Source: a virus
IMG/VR virus record: IMGVR_UViG_3300022698_000083
Coordinates: 1 to 26,900 of that record
Strand: one strand, 5' to 3'
DNA length: 26,900 nt
Part shown: piece after piece, positions 1,894 through 26,280 of the stretch
Numbering within the stretch: position 1 is the first letter of the stretch
How the letters are laid out: every line of letters starts with the position of its first letter
Position numbers and translations under genes: made by a program
The notes under the pieces: generated by a model
Databases searched by the model: none
Seen by the model: only the letters and a program-made list of their open reading frames with translations
Told to the model about the DNA's origin: nothing

Positions 1894-2655
1894 GTGAACA
1901 TAGTTATCCCTACCCTTGGTCGAGCAGACCGACAGATCACCTTCGACAACATGCCTCCCAAATGGCAGCAACGAACCACGCTGATCGTTCAGCACCACGA
2001 AGCGGACGACTACCACCCTTACCCCCGGATCGTGCTGCCCAAGCACATCAAAGACATCGCCAATACTCGGCACCACCTCGTACACGAGCACCCGTTCGAC
2101 AGTCAGTATATCGTCATGCTAGACGATGACCTCGTGTTCAGTGCGCGGCGGCTGGACGAACCTACCAAATTCCGCCCCATGCAGCCCGACGACTGGGACA
2201 ATATGTTCTACCATCTGGAACGTATGTTGAGGAAGTACGCGCATGTCGGCATCAGCCACCGGGAGGGAGCGAACCGCTGCACCGACGATATTATCTACAA
2301 CAGTCGGCAGATGCGGGTACTGGCGTTTGACAAGACGGTGCTCAGGTCATACGACATGGGTTACGGCAGAATCCCGGTTATGGAAGACTTCGATATGACC
2401 CTGCGCCTGCTCCGGGCAGGGCATCCCAACGTGCTCCTCAATAGTTGGGTCCACAATCAGGGCGGCAGCGATCAGTCAGGCGGATGCTCCACTTTCCGCA
2501 CGCCGGAGATGCAGAAGGCGGCTGCTCATAAGCTCTCGGCGCTCCATCCTGGCTTTGTCAAGGTGAGGGTAGTCCCTCCCAAGGGCGGCTGGAAGTACGA
2601 GCGAACCGACGTCACTATCTACTGGAAGAAAGCCTATGAATCCTCTCAGCAATAA
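1894..2655 (+). CDS. TAGT-like glycosyltransferase (DNA base modification)
   Basis: Predicted GT-A-fold glycosyltransferase of the TET/JBP-associated (TAGT) type, which is proposed to transfer a sugar from a nucleotide-sugar donor to a hydroxymethylated or otherwise modified base in phage DNA. The N-terminal IPTLGRADR segment (residues 5-13) is a typical donor-site start. LDDDL (76-80) carries the metal-binding DxD motif. MEDFDM (163-168) supplies a likely second acidic motif near the active site. The start is GTG at 1894 behind an AGGAG site, and the gene begins just after a terminator. Its 3' end overlaps the next gene by 20 bases. Fold and DxD are visible in the sequence; the TAGT assignment rests on family resemblance and on the two downstream thymidine-modification genes. 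A generic phage glycosyltransferase is the alternative. Confidence 0.75.
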   Translation: MNIVIPTLGRADRQITFDNMPPKWQQRTTLIVQHHEADDYHPYPRIVLPKHIKDIANTRHHLVHEHPFDSQYIVMLDDDLVFSARRLDEPTKFRPMQPDDWDNMFYHLERMLRKYAHVGISHREGANRCTDDIIYNSRQMRVLAFDKTVLRSYDMGYGRIPVMEDFDMTLRLLRAGHPNVLLNSWVHNQGGSDQSGGCSTFRTPEMQKAAAHKLSALHPGFVKVRVVPPKGGWKYERTDVTIYWKKAYESSQQ

Positions 2656-3457
2656 GGAACTGTTCTGCTACTGGATACGGGAGCGAGAACACATACGGGT
2701 GCTGAAGGAACAGGGCAAGGAGAAGCCTTGGTCCAACGACCGTGTCTTCCAAACCACCTACTTCTGCAACGTACGCCGGGAGCATGACAAGGTAACTCAG
2801 GGCATCCGCCGCCTGTGGGAATCCGCTCCCATAATGAGCGCCGCCGTACCGAATATGATCATGGCTCGTATGGTCAACAAAGTGGAGTCCTTGTGGGGGA
2901 TGGGATGGCCGTGGCTTCTGTTTTACGGCGACGCATGGGACGAAGTAATGTCCCGCAAAGGGTCCTGGGGAGGAGCTTACATAGTCAGCACCAACGGCAA
3001 CCCCATGCCCAAGCATGAGTACGTTGCAGGGCTGCTCGAACGGGCGTTCGAGGCGTTTACTGGCCCGGCCCATGCCACCCTACCGGGCACGCTGGCCGGG
3101 GCGCACAAGGCGCTACAGGGCGTCTCAGGGCTGGGGTCATTTATGGCTGCGCAGGTTGTGGCTGACCTTAAAAACACTGAGGACCATCCTCTTGGCGAAG
3201 CTGAGGACTGGTTTGGGTTCGCCTCCCATGGGCCGGGCAGTCTACGGGGACTGTCATGGTTCCACGAAACCAAGGTGACGCCCTCTAAGTTTATGGAAGC
3301 CCTTGTGTCTGCCCGCCAATGGGTGCAAAATAGAGACCCTGCACTGGTAGCACATCTGTGTAACCAGGACTTGCAGAACTGCTTCTGCGAGTACGACAAG
3401 TACATGCGGGTGAAGACCAATACAGGTCGCAGCAAGAGGAAATACGATGGCAGTTAA
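2636..3457 (+). CDS. alpha-glutamyl/putrescinyl thymine pyrophosphorylase-like protein (aGPT-PPlase)
   Basis: Member of the helical, DNA-glycosylase-related family described with phage thymidine hypermodification. In the known pathways such proteins act on DNA carrying phosphorylated or pyrophosphorylated 5-hydroxymethyluracil and install an amino acid or polyamine. Diagnostic segments are WIREREHIRVLK (13-24), PWSNDRVFQTTYFCNVRRE (31-49), the glycosylase-like VSGLGSFMAAQVVADL (163-178), and the C-terminal NCFCEYDKYMRVKTNTGRSK (248-267). The last matches the family's usual LCEFDKY...GRP ending, with Cys251, Asp254, Lys255 and Tyr256. At 273 aa it is the usual size for a stand-alone member. 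The start is ATG 2636, with a GGAAG site inside the preceding gene. It overlaps the thymidylate-synthase homologue by 11 bases, so the three genes are probably co-translated. The exact conjugate cannot be read from sequence. Confidence 0.88.
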   Translation: MNPLSNKELFCYWIREREHIRVLKEQGKEKPWSNDRVFQTTYFCNVRREHDKVTQGIRRLWESAPIMSAAVPNMIMARMVNKVESLWGMGWPWLLFYGDAWDEVMSRKGSWGGAYIVSTNGNPMPKHEYVAGLLERAFEAFTGPAHATLPGTLAGAHKALQGVSGLGSFMAAQVVADLKNTEDHPLGEAEDWFGFASHGPGSLRGLSWFHETKVTPSKFMEALVSARQWVQNRDPALVAHLCNQDLQNCFCEYDKYMRVKTNTGRSKRKYDGS

Positions 3458-4382
3458 TGTGAACGACTGGTTTAGCGACGCCTTGTGGGCGCTGAGAGCC
3501 GAGGGAGTGAAGCAAGACAGCAGAAATGGGAGGGTGATAGCAATAGAAAGGCCAATGCTCTTTACCGTGGCTCGCCCGGAAGAGCGCGTGCTTTTCAACC
3601 CTAAACGAATGGCCAACCCCTACCTCCACGTGATGGAGACGGTGTGGATGCTCGCTGGAGACAACGAAGTTGACTTTCTGCTAACCTTCAGCAAGCAGAT
3701 GGAAGCCTACGCGAACGGCGGGGTCATCAACGGCGCTTACGGCCATAGATGGAGAAACCACTTCGGCCGGGACCAGATAAAAGGCGTGGTCAAAGAGCTC
3801 ACAGAAGACCTCAACAGCCGACAAGCGGTCATCGGTATGTACGACCCAGCCGTGGACCACCACAGACACTGGAATGATCGACCTTGCAATACGCACATCT
3901 ACTTCCGCGCCGACGGTGGCGAGCTCGACATGACGGTGTGCAACCGCAGCAACGACGTTGTGTGGGGCATGTGTGGAGCGAACGCTGTGCACATGACTTA
4001 CCTGCAAGAGCTGGTGGCCCGAGCTTTGGGCATGGAGGTAGGTTTCTACAACGTAATGACCAACAACCTCCACATCTACGAGCATCACTGGCATCTGCTG
4101 GAGGGTCCTGGCAGCTACAACCTCTACGGACCGAAAGTCAAACCTTACCCTATCCTCCATGAGGGTGAAGAGGTGCGGGACCTACTCATAGACTGCGAAA
4201 ACTTCGTACAGCACCAGGAAGATTGGTATTACCGAACCAAGTGGATGAAAGACGTGGTTCTGCCCATGCACGGACACTATATGTGTCGACTTAACGGAGA
4301 CAAGGACACTTATGACATCAATGAAAACAAAGCTACCGACTGGAGAACCGCTGAAGAATTGTGGAGGTCTTGGAATGCCTAG
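3447..4382 (+). CDS. thymidylate synthase-family dUMP hydroxymethylase (5-hmdUMP synthesis)
   Basis: Thymidylate synthase/hydroxymethylase fold enzyme. Recognisable sites are the phosphate-loop segment DSRNG (24-28), ETVWMLAGDN (64-73), AYGHRWRNHF (97-106), catalytic Cys147 in RPCNTH, NRSNDVVWG (166-174), Asn179 in the substrate-recognition loop, and LHIYEHH (208-214). Asn at the position occupied by Asn177 in E. coli ThyA favours a uracil over a cytosine substrate. Cys147 is followed by Asn rather than the His usual in thymidylate synthases, and the canonical C-terminal lid sequence is absent, as expected if the enzyme hydroxymethylates rather than methylates. With its neighbours this points to 5-hydroxymethyl-dUMP production. 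The start is ATG 3447 behind AGAGGAAA. An atypical thymidylate synthase is the alternative. Confidence 0.82.
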   Translation: MAVNVNDWFSDALWALRAEGVKQDSRNGRVIAIERPMLFTVARPEERVLFNPKRMANPYLHVMETVWMLAGDNEVDFLLTFSKQMEAYANGGVINGAYGHRWRNHFGRDQIKGVVKELTEDLNSRQAVIGMYDPAVDHHRHWNDRPCNTHIYFRADGGELDMTVCNRSNDVVWGMCGANAVHMTYLQELVARALGMEVGFYNVMTNNLHIYEHHWHLLEGPGSYNLYGPKVKPYPILHEGEEVRDLLIDCENFVQHQEDWYYRTKWMKDVVLPMHGHYMCRLNGDKDTYDINENKATDWRTAEELWRSWNA

Positions 4383-4872
4383 AGCCACGTTCGACCTGCG
4401 GCTGACACGGGAGGCCAATAAGGTTCTCCGCTTTCACGGCTCGCCCCGGCACCAGCAAGAGACCATCGGTCATCACAGTGCGAATGTATGCGCGATACTC
4501 ATGTGGCTGGAACCAGATTGCCGCAAGGAACTGCTGGTGTTCGCCCTTATGCACGACTGGCCGGAGGTGTACACGGGCGACATCCCTTATCCGGCCAAGA
4601 GTGATAGCGAACAACTGAAGATGGCCACCCTGGAGTTAGAAGAGCACTTCTGGGTAGAGCGGCTTGGCTTGATACCGCCGGAGCTGACCGAGGCTGAGAT
4701 GTATTTGCTCAAGCTGGCAGACATGCTCGACTTGGTGCTGTCAGCCCAAGACGAGCTTCACATGGGCAACCTGTATATGGACCAGATGGTACACGCAGGA
4801 ATGAACTACATTGCTGACATGGACCTGCCCGAACACCTGAGGCAGAAAGTAGCGGAGGCTATTGAACAATGA
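4375..4872 (+). CDS. HD-domain nucleotide phosphohydrolase (YfbR-like)
   Basis: Metal-dependent HD-superfamily phosphohydrolase, 165 aa, resembling small 5'-deoxynucleotidases. The motifs are His33-His34 in TIGHHSANV, His60-Asp61 in LMHDWPEVYTGDIP, and a distal Asp116 in LKLADMLDL, giving the H...HD...D metal site. The start is taken as ATG 4375 because a GGAGG ribosome binding site ends 8 bases upstream; longer in-frame starts would lie deep inside the preceding gene. It overlaps that gene by 8 bases and the next by 4. In this operon a plausible job is hydrolysing dTMP or another deoxynucleotide to favour the modified precursor; that is inference from context. Substrate specificity is not visible in the sequence. 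Confidence 0.85.
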   Translation: MPRATFDLRLTREANKVLRFHGSPRHQQETIGHHSANVCAILMWLEPDCRKELLVFALMHDWPEVYTGDIPYPAKSDSEQLKMATLELEEHFWVERLGLIPPELTEAEMYLLKLADMLDLVLSAQDELHMGNLYMDQMVHAGMNYIADMDLPEHLRQKVAEAIEQ

Positions 4873-5105
4873 GCGCAAACGACAAACAAGTAGGTGGCGA
4901 CCACTACCAGCGGGGGAAAGTCCAGCATTGGGACTGGGCGCAGCACAAAGACTATCTAGTTGGTGCTTCCACGAAGTACCTAGACCGCCACGAGGAAAAG
5001 GGTGGCATCAAAAGCGTGGAGAAGGCCGTCCACTACATACAGAAGCTGGTAGAGCGGGACTACCCCGACTACGAGCTTACATTCGAAATCAAAAAGAAAA
5101 ACTAG
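4869..5105 (+). CDS. DUF3310 family protein
   Basis: Small soluble protein with the signature of DUF3310: QVGGDHY (residues 7-13), HWDWAQH (20-26), and GASTKYLDRHEEKGGIKSVE (32-51), followed by a helix KAVHYIQKLVERD. This family is widespread in phages and usually sits among nucleotide-metabolism or early genes; some members are labelled nucleotide kinases on weak grounds, and no P-loop is present here. The ATG overlaps the stop codon of the HD gene as ATGA, and this is the last gene of the rightward operon before the convergent late genes. Its biochemical role is unknown. Confidence 0.9.
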   Translation: MSANDKQVGGDHYQRGKVQHWDWAQHKDYLVGASTKYLDRHEEKGGIKSVEKAVHYIQKLVERDYPDYELTFEIKKKN

Positions 5106-10194: not shown

Positions 10195-11379
10195 TTAAAC
10201 CGGCTTCACGCCGCCGCCAGCTCCACCGGATCCACCGCCAGCCACCCACGACATAGTTCCGGGATCAAAGAAATACGAAGCGCCGCCTCTTTGATACCCG
10301 TAACTTGAGTTTCCAAAGCCCTGACCTGGAACAGGAGCCGCGTAGCCGCTCTCCATAATCTCTACTTCTGGCAGGGTAGTCCAAGACCAGTCCGTCGGCA
10401 TTGCCTGCATCGGGTTTTCCGCTGCTTCCTGCCGAAGTCGGTTGGCCATAACCTGATTGCGTTGAAAGCCCTGTGACTGGCGAATAAGGTTGCCGAACTG
10501 GTTCTGGTAGAAGTCACGGTTGTCCCCAGGAAATTGGTCACTACCCCATGTAGCTCCTTCGCCGGGGCTGTACCGGGCGCTGGCGTCGTAGTTGGGGAAG
10601 TACTGACCGAAGCCTCCTGTGTCCGTCTGGGTGCCAAACCTGCCCCAGTCCCAGTCCATGCTGGGAGCTTCTCCGCCGCCCCCGACGGGAGTAAACTTCT
10701 CTCCCGGATTCCAATCGATGACTGTTTCTGGGTCGTTCGGGTATCTGGGCGGAACGATAACTTCTCCGCCTTCGGGAGCGCCTATCATCTCCCCCGTTTC
10801 GGTGTCGTAGGTGAAGCCGTCTCCGTCAACGTAGTTGTTGTCAGCATCTAGCATTCCCGGATCGCGCCCCAAGTTCTCGCCGCCCCAATCGGTCACTCCC
10901 GGAGCCGTCGGATCTTGAACACCAGGACCTCCGGGCAGGGGTTGCGCACTTTCTGGCAGCGGTATCTCGTTGACGCCCCGCGCCGGAGTTCCGCCGTATC
11001 CCGGCGCACTGGAGCCGTCCGTATACACGCCGGTCCAGTTGGCGTCGGTGTCGACAAGATTTCCGCTTTCGCCAGCCCCGCCCTGCGCAGACGTGCCGAG
11101 CAAAGAATCCAATCTTTTGGTGGCGGCAAAGCGGGCTTCGTCCCGGTCAATGTATCTGGGCAGATTGGCACCTTCTCTAACGATGGCGTTCAATTCTGCC
11201 ATTGAAAGCCCCGAGACGTAGTCTGCGGCAGACGGAACCACAGAACGCTCAGGCTCAGGCTCATTCATTTGCTGGCGAATTTGCGCAGCGCGGGCACGAG
11301 CGGCGTTGGCCTGAGTTACCGGGTTATCAACGTCGCCCCAAGAATATGATTGACCGTTTTGCGTAACGATCCAGCCCAT
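10195..11379 (-). CDS. Gly/Pro-rich virion-type protein, 394 aa
   Basis: Unrecognised protein. The start is ATG 11379 because GAGGGAGG precedes it and its A is shared with the stop codon of the GNAT gene (TAATG). A longer in-frame start exists but lies inside that gene. The N-terminus begins MGWIVTQNGQSYSWGD, a short beta-like module, followed by a helical Ala/Arg segment. The middle (about residues 90-260) is Asp/Gly/Pro/Thr-rich and probably disordered or collagen-like. The C-terminus has Tyr/Gly-rich stretches and ends in a poly-Gly run (GGGSGGAGGGVKPV). It is probably structural or an ejection partner; the function is unknown. Confidence 0.6.
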   Translation of the reverse strand: MGWIVTQNGQSYSWGDVDNPVTQANAARARAAQIRQQMNEPEPERSVVPSAADYVSGLSMAELNAIVREGANLPRYIDRDEARFAATKRLDSLLGTSAQGGAGESGNLVDTDANWTGVYTDGSSAPGYGGTPARGVNEIPLPESAQPLPGGPGVQDPTAPGVTDWGGENLGRDPGMLDADNNYVDGDGFTYDTETGEMIGAPEGGEVIVPPRYPNDPETVIDWNPGEKFTPVGGGGEAPSMDWDWGRFGTQTDTGGFGQYFPNYDASARYSPGEGATWGSDQFPGDNRDFYQNQFGNLIRQSQGFQRNQVMANRLRQEAAENPMQAMPTDWSWTTLPEVEIMESGYAAPVPGQGFGNSSYGYQRGGASYFFDPGTMSWVAGGGSGGAGGGVKPV

Positions 11380-11813
11380 TATGCGGCCTCCCTCATTCTC
11401 TCTGGCAACCAGCGACACTCACTTTTTTCTAAGCCGAGTACCTCATAATGCACCCCATCTTCAAGAGCGTTGGGTATGGTGGCTATGTGCTTCATGCCGA
11501 GATGATAGTTAAGTTTCAAGGCTTTCTCGTTTGTGCTAGGGACTAGTCCAAACAACCGTTGTCGATTTCTTTCTATGAACGTGTAGTGCGCGATACTCTC
11601 AAAAAATCCGTGTCTCAGTACCATCGGGCTTTCAATCGCCATATGTACGTTACAGGCAACCGGCGTAAAGCTGTCAAATAAGACAATGGCCACGATGATA
11701 CCACGAGCATTGCGGGCAACCATACCACAGGTGTCGCCACAGAGAATAGGGTGTGCGCGACTATGAATCCAAGTCCATTCTTCGGCGGTCGTCAGTGGGC
11801 TCAGGGCAATCAC
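11379..11813 (-). CDS. GNAT-like acetyltransferase-fold protein
   Basis: Protein of 144 aa with the layout of a GNAT N-acyltransferase: a central beta strand with ARNARGIIVAIVLFD, a following MAIESPMVLRHGF segment, and a C-terminal SMN-type end (STNEKALKLNYHLGMKHI) that matches the N-x-x-A-x-x-x-Y...G motif typical of the fold. The start is GTG 11813: it forms a GTGA overlap with the upstream stop and has GGAAGG 9-10 bases before it, while the longer TTG start would overlap the upstream gene by 37 bases. Phages often carry a GNAT in the neck/ejection region; its substrate is unknown. The acetyl-CoA loop (R/Q-x-x-G-x-G/A) is not obvious, so catalytic activity is uncertain. Confidence 0.7.
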   Translation of the reverse strand: MIALSPLTTAEEWTWIHSRAHPILCGDTCGMVARNARGIIVAIVLFDSFTPVACNVHMAIESPMVLRHGFFESIAHYTFIERNRQRLFGLVPSTNEKALKLNYHLGMKHIATIPNALEDGVHYEVLGLEKSECRWLPERMREAA

Positions 11814-13483
11814 AGAAAGCCGCCTTCCGCCACCATAAGGTCCCAAGAGACCACATCAATCCTAGACTGAGAACTACCACGCATACCGATAGCAACACTG
11901 CGACCAATGCCATATGTCCCACGGATGAAATTAAGTGCCTCAATGTTGAATGTCCAGTTTGAACCATCCCAAACCGCGCTGTCCCATAGTACATCGCCTC
12001 CTACATTACTGGAGCCTGCGTTGCTGAGTGTAGCCTCTACATCAAAATCATACACCGCCGTAAGAGTGACGTTTGTCTTTTTACTGAGAAGACCCACCAC
12101 GCGAATCATGCCGACATTCTTGAAGTGAGCCATGTTTCCATAAGACTGAAAGCTCGTCAAGGTGCGGAAGGAGATAGCTCTTCCCCCATCCCCGGATAAG
12201 TCTCTGTCGTCGAGCACTCCAGAATAAAGCCACAGCTCGCCACTGTTGGCTTCATAATCTAAAGCGCCCATGTAGTACCGACCGTTAAAGGTCTCTCCAC
12301 ATGCGATTGGAACGCCTTCCCAGAAGCCCCACGCTTTCGTATTAAGGTTTTGATTGTACTGAATGACACTGGCCCCGCCATCAGTAGAAGGAGCGATTAC
12401 CTGCATGAACCCATCGGCGGGATGCAGAAAGATAGACCAGTAAGGGCTATTGATAGCTTGGTCTAGTGCAGTCCTCAAAATTCTGTTTACCTTAGCGGAA
12501 GCACTTGTGCGTAGATTGTCTGCCGCGGAACCCTGTAGCAGATCTCGCATACTGGTGATGCCGAACGTGGATAGTACATACATCTCGCTGCCATACTGAG
12601 CGGCGATTCTGCGACTATTGGGCGTAGCGCCTACGAACCAGTTGCCGTTAAGAGCGAAATCTGCCCCCTCAGGGTCTCCGCCTCGGTAGACAATGACGTC
12701 TCCACCCCGGCCAACGCCTACCAGATAGTCGTCGACTCCGTCACCACCATCAAGAGTCCAAGACCATAGCCCCTGGAGCGTACCCCCGTACTTCATCTTA
12801 GCGCCAAAAGTGAACTTTTTCAGTTCCCCTGCTATGCTGGCGATAGGTAGGTACCACGCATCACTGCTATTCCTGAGTATTACCCAGATGCGCAGCTTGT
12901 GAACCATGATGTACGCGACTTCATCTACGGGAAAGCCGACCAAACCAGCGCCAAGGTCGTACGACCATTCTCCCGTGCCGGTGCCGCTGACAGGTACCGA
13001 CCAAGTGCCCGTGGATTCCTCATACTGGTGCAGCCCATTCTCGTAGTCTGCATAGAACAGGTAGTGATTTCCAGCGTCGTTAGTAAACTCAAGCCAAGTG
13101 CCGAACCCAGCGTTATCGCCCTGTACTGAAAATGCTACTTCTTGAGTGGGGGATGTCTCGCCGTCAGTTGTGGTATTGTAGATACCGTTTTCTGTCACAG
13201 ACCAGAGACGGTCATTGGCTGTGTCAGCAGAGTTGGATTCATAAGCGATTATGGTACGGACCTCACCGTCAGCTCCCGTAGCATATCGTCTCCACCCTTG
13301 GCGAAGTTGAAGCCCATATTCTACGGGCATCAAATTGTAGGTGTAGATGCAATCCTCTGGTGGCATCGCCGCATAGCTGTCAAGGGAGTTTACCCCTCCA
13401 ACGCTTGCGGGGACACTAAACGGTCTCGCGGTCTGGGGTACTCCTCGTCCTAGCCTACCGAAATTGCGACGGTTAAGAGCCAT
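11810..13483 (-). CDS. P22 gp10-like neck/tail stopper (beta-propeller) protein
   Basis: Protein of 557 aa, all-beta. It opens with a basic tail and FSVPASVGGVNSLDSYAAMP, a start common to podovirus packaged-DNA-stabilisation/tail-hub proteins, followed by YNLMPVEYGLQLRQGWR. Repeated blade-like segments follow (RLWSVTENGIYN, GNHYLFYADYENGLHQYE, RIWVILRNSSDAWYLP, DYLVGVGRGGDVIVYRGGDP), then SKVNRI-type helices and a C-terminal beta domain. This fits the family that sits below the portal-adaptor ring and closes the DNA channel. It overlaps the adaptor gene by 11 bases and the GNAT gene by 4. The start has no good ribosome binding site, so it probably relies on coupling. The family assignment rests on architecture and position, not a catalytic motif. 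Confidence 0.72.
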   Translation of the reverse strand: MALNRRNFGRLGRGVPQTARPFSVPASVGGVNSLDSYAAMPPEDCIYTYNLMPVEYGLQLRQGWRRYATGADGEVRTIIAYESNSADTANDRLWSVTENGIYNTTTDGETSPTQEVAFSVQGDNAGFGTWLEFTNDAGNHYLFYADYENGLHQYEESTGTWSVPVSGTGTGEWSYDLGAGLVGFPVDEVAYIMVHKLRIWVILRNSSDAWYLPIASIAGELKKFTFGAKMKYGGTLQGLWSWTLDGGDGVDDYLVGVGRGGDVIVYRGGDPEGADFALNGNWFVGATPNSRRIAAQYGSEMYVLSTFGITSMRDLLQGSAADNLRTSASAKVNRILRTALDQAINSPYWSIFLHPADGFMQVIAPSTDGGASVIQYNQNLNTKAWGFWEGVPIACGETFNGRYYMGALDYEANSGELWLYSGVLDDRDLSGDGGRAISFRTLTSFQSYGNMAHFKNVGMIRVVGLLSKKTNVTLTAVYDFDVEATLSNAGSSNVGGDVLWDSAVWDGSNWTFNIEALNFIRGTYGIGRSVAIGMRGSSQSRIDVVSWDLMVAEGGFL

Positions 13484-25514: not shown

Positions 25515-25901
25515 TCACTCATCTAGTGGACTGTGTGGCACCCGCATGACTATTTCTAGCCGGTTTGATTCGCCTAGAGCTGAACTAGCTTGGCTGGGGA
25601 GCAGCCTCGCGTACAGCTTGGCGAATTCTGTGTAGTTCTCATTGGCCCAGAGAGCCAGACGGGGGACACCGCCCACGAGATCGAACGCTTGCTGGAAGGA
25701 GTTAACTACGTCTTTACGTGTGAAGTGCGGGTTCTTGGGAACCCTGACGGCCTTCCCATCTGCGATATGGCGCAAAGGCTCCATGTCCAGAAACAAGTCT
25801 TTCGTATCCGGCTCGGGTGTCTGTGTCAGCGAGCTGGATTTCTCGGCTGTGTCTGGTATAGTGTCGGAACCAACGATCAATTCCTGCTTGGAGTCGGTCA
25901 T
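25515..25901 (-). CDS. candidate terminase small subunit, 128 aa
   Basis: The C-terminal half has the pattern KDVVNSFQQAFDLVGG (residues 63-78), PRLALWANENYTEFAKLYAR (about 80-99) and LLPSQ, a motif I associate with small-terminase or packaging-related phage proteins (aromatic GG...LA.WA..N...F..LY..LLP). The first 45 residues are polar and low in complexity, overlapping the 3' part of the kinase gene. The start is ATG 25901 with GAGG 7 bases upstream; an in-frame ATG at 25784 would reduce the overlap but has a poor ribosome binding site. In a small terminase this domain would recognise the packaging site and stimulate the large subunit. The assignment is from motif memory and is moderate. 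Confidence 0.5.
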   Translation of the reverse strand: MTDSKQELIVGSDTIPDTAEKSSSLTQTPEPDTKDLFLDMEPLRHIADGKAVRVPKNPHFTRKDVVNSFQQAFDLVGGVPRLALWANENYTEFAKLYARLLPSQASSALGESNRLEIVMRVPHSPLDE

Positions 25902-26280
25902 GGTGACCTCGCCGCTGCATTCGTGCGCAACATACCATTTTTGGCGGCATCACTGCAACAAGAATGCAGTGATGAGTGCGGGAGATACGGTCTATCCAGT
26001 GCTGCTTGCTTTCCCGCCTATTGGCTCCGGTGGTAAAGACGAATGATTCCCTGGAATTACAGGCTTCTGTGATCGCATTGGAGCGGAGACGCAACTTCTG
26101 TCGGTGGGGTCCGCGAAATTTGTCAATATCGACTAATTTGAGGTGCTTGTGGAACTCTTTGTATAGCGTGGTCTTCCCTGCGCCGGGTGGTCCAGTCAGA
26201 ATTATACAGACCGGCTGAGTGTACGCGGTGTCCTGTGCTCCTGGTGGTTCTGTAGCGTTGTATCTATTGAAATTTGACAA
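25714..26280 (-). CDS. P-loop kinase, candidate 5-hmdU DNA kinase or zeta-like kinase
   Basis: Protein of 188 aa with a clear P-loop, GPPGAGKT (residues 30-37), followed by VDIDKFRG (50-57, likely Walker-B/substrate Asp) and a C-terminal R-rich lid (RMQRRGHHDRLQAGIDRWFR). This is the layout of small P-loop nucleotide or polynucleotide kinases and zeta-type kinases. It opens the leftward operon. In the context of a pyrophosphorylase-like and hydroxymethylase gene elsewhere in the window, a DNA kinase that phosphorylates 5-hydroxymethyluracil is an attractive role. The start is read as TTG 26280 with no good ribosome binding site; no ATG or GTG lies upstream in the frame. The last 63 codons overlap the next gene, which is odd. 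Kinase fold is firm; substrate is inference. Confidence 0.7.
   Translation of the reverse strand: MSNFNRYNATEPPGAQDTAYTQPVCIILTGPPGAGKTTLYKEFHKHLKLVDIDKFRGPHRQKLRLRSNAITEACNSRESFVFTTGANRRESKQHWIDRISRTHHCILVAVMPPKMVCCARMQRRGHHDRLQAGIDRWFRHYTRHSREIQLADTDTRAGYERLVSGHGAFAPYRRWEGRQGSQEPALHT

Follow-up and report, generated by a model that had tools for sequence, protein, structure and literature searches.

The 26.9-kb phage record fragment analysed here (hereafter, the window) carries a five-gene operon that probably makes DNA containing a sugar-capped, base-J-like 5-hydroxymethyluracil, in which a helical protein of family PF18723 (HEL) would be the shared partner presenting 5-hmdU to exchangeable modifying enzymes, or writers. 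This reading, the one we favour, draws on the gene order, the protein families, the catalytic motifs, the mutual exclusion of kinases and glycosyltransferases beside HEL, and their repeated exchange, all as read from the sequences.

Organization of the operon

The operon is an overlapping run on the + strand, downstream of a gene encoding an SNF2-type DNA helicase whose 5′ end is cut by the window edge (3–1235, +; phrog_62, 1.7e-96). The helicase is a conserved upstream neighbour, since the order Pol-SNF2-writer-HEL-HMase also occurs in relatives, and it is outside the modification chemistry. An intrinsic terminator (1846–1873, +), composed of a 12-bp stem, a 4-nt loop and a subsequent U run, gave a folding energy of -23.4 kcal/mol (z -2.46) in the strand-fold computation; the same hairpin was absent from the list produced by a simple terminator scan. 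This strong terminator separates the operon from the gene upstream.

The original prediction of three overlapping genes at 1894–4382 was confirmed by open reading frames at exactly these positions and by profile matches. The first gene encodes a TAGT-family (GT-A) glycosyltransferase (1894–2655, +; PF20691, phrog_842) and starts with GTG, preceded by an AGGAG-type ribosome site; the second encodes HEL, annotated 'HMUDK_hel' (2636–3457, +; PF18723); and the third encodes a thymidylate-synthase-superfamily protein, best read as a dUMP hydroxymethylase (HMase; 3447–4382, +). The first two genes overlap by 20 bp and the last two by 11 bp. An operon of these three genes had been proposed; it is in fact longer, and the overlapping run is extended by an HD-domain 5′-deoxynucleotidase gene (YfbR-like; about 4375–4872, +; PF12917, 1.3e-14), whose longest reading frame begins at 4312 and whose likely ATG, as read from the sequence, lies at 4375, and by a final gene encoding a DUF3310 protein (4869–5105, +; PF11753 at 1.6e-4, just under the cut-off; phrog_236 nucleotide kinase, 7e-13). 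The DUF3310 domain is common to a phage nucleotide kinase family, and this protein is possibly dNMP kinase-like. The order glycosyltransferase-HEL-HMase was found again in dozens of distinct contigs, and with this recurrence the gene set is far beyond chance.

The structural genes of the window are located on the minus strand. Among them is a gene encoding a GNAT-type acyltransferase (11379–11846, −; phrog_4470), and beside them lies a gene for a P-loop NTPase/kinase-like protein (25714–26280, −; AAA_33, with weak similarity to zeta toxins and polynucleotide kinases), for which no relatives were found in IMG/VR. The latter was considered as the missing 5-hmdU kinase and rejected, as it had neither a blastp match to M6 gp54 nor a PF18748 match.

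Protein families and the identity of the modified base

The profile search placed the first protein in PF20691 at 67.4 bits (cut-off 27.5; E 2.2e-18), with a phrog_842 match at 1e-44, which bears out its predicted membership of the TAGT family. Its acidic GT-A metal-binding motif, formed by D77, D78 and D79 together with D165, was conserved in at least 60 of 62 HEL-linked homologues, and the DDD motif itself (residues 77–79) was kept in 61 of them. Searches of PDB sequences with TAGT and with HEL returned nothing usable. Judging from its family and motif, this enzyme would glycosylate a hydroxymethyl base in DNA. The TAGT of T2/T6 has been described as adding glucose onto an existing glucose and not onto the hydroxymethyl base, and solitary TAGTs are singled out there as likely novel transferases (PMC13216743).

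The third protein matched the thymidylate synthase superfamily (PF00303, 75.5 bits against a cut-off of 24.3; E 4.8e-21) and PHROG 5131 (3e-83). It was 36% identical to M6 gp58 and could be aligned along its length to HMases from M6-like phages; its closest full-length relatives are M6-type enzymes, and M6-like phage DNA has proven 5-hmdU-derived bases (PMC6449724). It fell under every NCBIfam thymidylate synthase equivalog cut-off (best 78 bits against 174.55), while all three proteins scored above the cut-offs of their own Pfam families. Both the nucleophile, C147, and the residue that reads the base, N179, were invariant in 101/101 relatives; N179 aligned with the asparagine of thymidylate synthases, where CMP hydroxymethylase has an aspartate. 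A dUMP hydroxymethylase, as originally predicted, is therefore the best reading of this gene, and the similarity to M6 gp58 points to a hydroxymethyl and not a methyl product. An alternative in which the gene encodes a dCMP hydroxymethylase or a normal thymidylate synthase, and the modified base is something other than 5-hmdU, appears very improbable to us. A CMP hydroxymethylase is the best solved-structure match, the homologue in phage LuckyBarnes has been called a dCMP hydroxymethylase (PMC6588365), and T4-type TAGTs act on cytosine (PMC13390438); against this stand the asparagine typical of dUMP enzymes at position 179, the scores below all the equivalog cut-offs and the M6-type affinity. 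The prediction of a thymidine-type (5-hmdU) modification is thus supported.

HEL matched PF18723 at 106.2 bits (cut-off 25; E 2.5e-30), a family currently named HMUDK_hel, for 5-hmdU DNA kinase helical domain. The name aGPT-PPlase spans two families: aGPT-PPlase2 is the older name of PF18723 and aGPT-PPlase1 that of PF18724. In Pfam, M6 gp51 belongs to PF18724, the amino acid:DNA transferase (ADDT), M6 gp55 to the PF18723 helical domain, and M6 gp54 to PF18748, the 5-hmdU DNA kinase. The window HEL is a homologue of gp55 and not of gp51. No PF18724 match was found among the window proteins, while the positive control M6 gp51 matched at 1.4e-46; likewise, none of the window proteins scanned, the P-loop protein among them, matched PF18748, although the window is an incomplete 26.9-kb fragment and a kinase gene could lie in the missing part. 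A function of HEL as an amino acid transferase was rejected on its family, though the folds are related, and the amino acid or polyamine conjugation originally predicted for the middle gene was not supported.

The AlphaFold2 model of HEL (pLDDT 94.9) was all-helical. In a Foldseek search against the PDB, EndoIII, MagIII, MutY and OGG came out on top, and HhH glycosylases made up most of the top 11 matches, at weak values (E 0.3–3, TM up to 0.5); a fold resembling HhH-GPD DNA glycosylases is thus weakly predicted and is best treated as a lead. In BFVD, HEL matched ADDT proteins and aligned over 310 columns of the 637-aa SP10 5-hmdU DNA kinase, whose name and length suggest that in SP10 a HEL domain forms part of a larger kinase. 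Among the fetched loci, no fused glycosyltransferase-HEL or kinase-HEL proteins were found. A PF18723 relative was also observed on a Haloarcula marina plasmid (L145, 3953–5587), with a dTMP-kinase-like gene as its neighbour and a restriction endonuclease gene nearby, which suggests that the 5-hmdU kinase pair has a cellular or archaeal counterpart.

HEL itself could conceivably catalyse a separate step on 5-hmdU, such as phosphoryl transfer, with the glycosyltransferase acting on the product, for example by placing a sugar on a phosphorylated hydroxymethyl group. The Pfam and RefSeq names call HEL a kinase domain, it has many invariant polar residues, and in ViI its homologue is encoded on its own, well away from the kinase gene. 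We nevertheless consider a catalytic HEL unlikely, given that it is all-helical with a glycosylase-like architecture, lacking a P-loop or any known kinase fold, and that its partner is a kinase or a glycosyltransferase, never both, as documented below.

Writers beside HEL and their exchange

Loci were gathered through HEL, through the glycosyltransferase and through the HMase, and each set represents the nearest relatives of its query and not a random draw. De-replication of the HEL-centred set at 90% HEL identity left 106 non-redundant loci, each with one writer class: 58 had a TAGT, 36 a kinase, 6 a GT-B-like protein and 6 a protein of a family that we call X. The kinase was encoded within the locus in 34 of the 36 kinase loci; for PhiW-14 and L040, the kinase match lay elsewhere in the record. 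TAGT and kinase occurred together in 0/106 loci (Fisher p 7.6e-17, not corrected for relatedness), and most close relatives of the window HEL adjoin a glycosyltransferase and no kinase. All 14 loci with an ADDT (14/14) were kinase loci. Searches of whole records agreed with this pattern, as neither PF18748 nor PF18724 was found in 36 TAGT-bearing relative records, and no TAGT scored above its cut-off in 16 kinase-type records. The writers were again exclusive in the HMase-centred sample, where HEL was present in 77/80 loci (42 with a TAGT, 22 with a kinase, 5 with family X, 3 with a GT-B and 5 others). Three of these five others were cut at the contig end, one (L265) had a divergent GT-A-like gene, and one (L254) had a methyltransferase-like gene. 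The latter (L254:6121–6957) immediately preceded HEL, in the position taken elsewhere by the kinase or the glycosyltransferase, and is possibly another type of writer.

These counts bear on the composite base originally proposed, in which a single operon would both conjugate an amino acid or polyamine and glycosylate. This idea could appeal to the older name of the middle gene, aGPT-PPlase2, and to the P-loop protein and the GNAT acyltransferase of the window, both on the other strand. It is not supported: neither an ADDT nor a 5-hmdU kinase family match was detected in the window or in the 36 TAGT-bearing relative records, ADDT was seen only with a kinase, the P-loop protein had no PF18748 match, and the GNAT gene is located among structural genes. 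We regard a composite base as highly unlikely.

The six members of family X (L114:7042–7995, L119, L026, L118, L106 and L135) occupy the writer slot beside HEL and had no Pfam match. The structural model (pLDDT 80.6) gave clear GT-B matches, closest to Gtf3, T4 BGT and T4 AGT, at E of about 1e-6; among them was a T4 AGT structure in complex with DNA that carries a hydroxymethyluracil base, and family X is probably a new DNA glycosyltransferase family. The writers associated with HEL would thus be a kinase or one of three unrelated glycosyltransferase groups, all plausible modifiers of the hydroxymethyl group. Some relatives carry additional genes between TAGT and HEL that fit sugar chemistry, namely a nucleotidyltransferase gene (L036) or a radical SAM/SPASM gene (L021:8282–9241, L035:8976–9980, L070:1411–2529). 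A further radical SAM/SPASM gene lies beside the GT-A-like gene and HEL in L265 (5271–6245), and an epimerase gene adjoins the cassette in L031. The radical SAM/SPASM proteins could serve to tailor either the sugar or the base, and the extra sugar genes in relatives suggest varied sugars.

The distribution of writers over the HEL tree indicates repeated exchange. The kinase/glycosyltransferase label requires 18 changes, several of which are forced by strongly supported branches alone, and the well-supported phylogenetically independent pairs ran in opposite directions in 6/6 cases (p 0.03). The clearest pair consists of L062, with the order glycosyltransferase-glycosyltransferase-HEL, and L066, with the order kinase-HEL. 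Their HEL proteins are 90% identical, and their DNA is 84% identical from 7 bp into HEL through the HMase, HD and DUF3310 genes, while no blastn match was found between the two loci upstream of HEL. As judged from these alignments, the writer was swapped at the HEL boundary and HEL was retained. On the same kind of evidence, kinase and glycosyltransferase appear to have replaced each other many times as alternatives at one slot, and a base both conjugated and glycosylated is therefore unlikely.

An exchange breakpoint at the 5′ end of HEL would also fit a HEL that has no role in glycosylation and is simply carried along, the writer slot being a recombination hot spot in a cassette derived from kinase phages. 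Four loci with TAGT and HMase lack HEL (ctUhy936, that is L002, and L150, L161 and L163), so a strict need for HEL does not extend to all TAGTs. In L150 and L163, another small gene was observed in the gap where HEL is missing. Nevertheless, HEL was kept in 75/80 loci of the TAGT-centred sample, its conservation extends across deep divergence, and it is paired with glycosyltransferases of three unrelated groups, which makes a mere passenger improbable.

In the route that we favour, with HEL as the shared partner, the HMase would convert dUMP to 5-hmdUMP, the HD nucleotidase and the DUF3310 protein would tune the nucleotide pool so that 5-hmdU enters DNA, and a phage polymerase encoded outside the window would incorporate it. 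After replication, the TAGT would use a nucleotide-sugar as donor to glycosylate the 5-hydroxymethyl group. HEL, as a non-conjugating, glycosylase-like HhH partner, would recognise 5-hmdU and present it, probably by flipping, to exchangeable writers. The writer of other phages would be a 5-hmdU DNA kinase feeding amino acid transferases, and here a glycosyltransferase would occupy the kinase slot. What we infer is the chemistry of each step, the kind of sugar used and the physical contact between HEL and its writer. The M6 kinase is sequence-selective for TG/TC (PMC6449724, PMC7653180), a selectivity that a shared recognition protein could explain. More tentatively, and with somewhat less than an even chance in our estimation, PF18723 proteins may be universal adaptors that flip 5-hmdU, derive their fold from glycosylases and serve as a dock for interchangeable writers, including the P-loop kinase, the GT-A TAGT, at least two GT-B families and possibly others such as the methyltransferase-like protein of L254; phages would then switch DNA chemistry by a one-gene swap, and the window would represent the glycosylated-5-hmdU chemotype.

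Comparison with known systems

The gene combination has been partly reported before (PMC9599517, PMC6588365). We found no report, in the open literature searched, of the mutually exclusive pairing of kinase and glycosyltransferase with PF18723, and no demonstration in phage DNA of glycosylated 5-hmdU made by such a route. The analysis corrects a misleading annotation, as the 'kinase helical domain' protein mostly neighbours, in close relatives, a glycosyltransferase and no kinase, and sugar-capped 5-hmdU DNA is predicted for a large class of phages, most of them uncultured. The proposed plug-in architecture would allow a single gene swap to change the DNA chemistry and, presumably, which host defences are evaded; it is also a possible tool for site-selective glycosylation of 5-hmU.

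Phages M6, ViI and PhiW-14 have the dUMP HMase family and a PF18723 protein in common with the window, and in M6 the HD nucleotidase and DUF3310 genes are also in the neighbourhood, near PolA. In contrast, their kinase (PF18748), ADDT (PF18724), PLP and radical SAM genes were not found in the window, where a TAGT stands in the kinase's place. In pelagiphages, a region of the HTVC023P type has been reported to carry a TAGT with a TS, an aG/PT-PPlase and a nucleotidase (PMC9599517); going by the description there, the middle protein is an aG/PT-PPlase1, and an exchange between kinase and glycosyltransferase is not mentioned. The cultured Brevibacterium phage LuckyBarnes (NC_047851) has been described with an HMase, annotated as dCMP hydroxymethylase, and two glycosyltransferases (PMC6588365). 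It resembles the window in having HMase, TAGT and PF18723 genes in one gene run, and differs in its two TAGTs, its gene order and its distant sequence (32% for TAGT).

The T-even TAGT (beta-glucosyl-HMC-alpha-glucosyltransferase) shares the PF20691/phrog_842 family and the DDD motif with the window enzyme, but it acts after the alpha-GT on glucosylated cytosine (PMC13216743), whereas the base in the window would be uracil-derived. Neither an alpha- nor a beta-GT was seen among the window genes examined. Base J is made on thymine already in DNA, whereas the window phage is proposed to supply 5-hmdUMP before replication. The likeness lies in the proposed product class, a glycosylated 5-hmU, which the window phage would share with base J (beta-glucosyl-hydroxymethyluracil) of kinetoplastids (PMC7055916).
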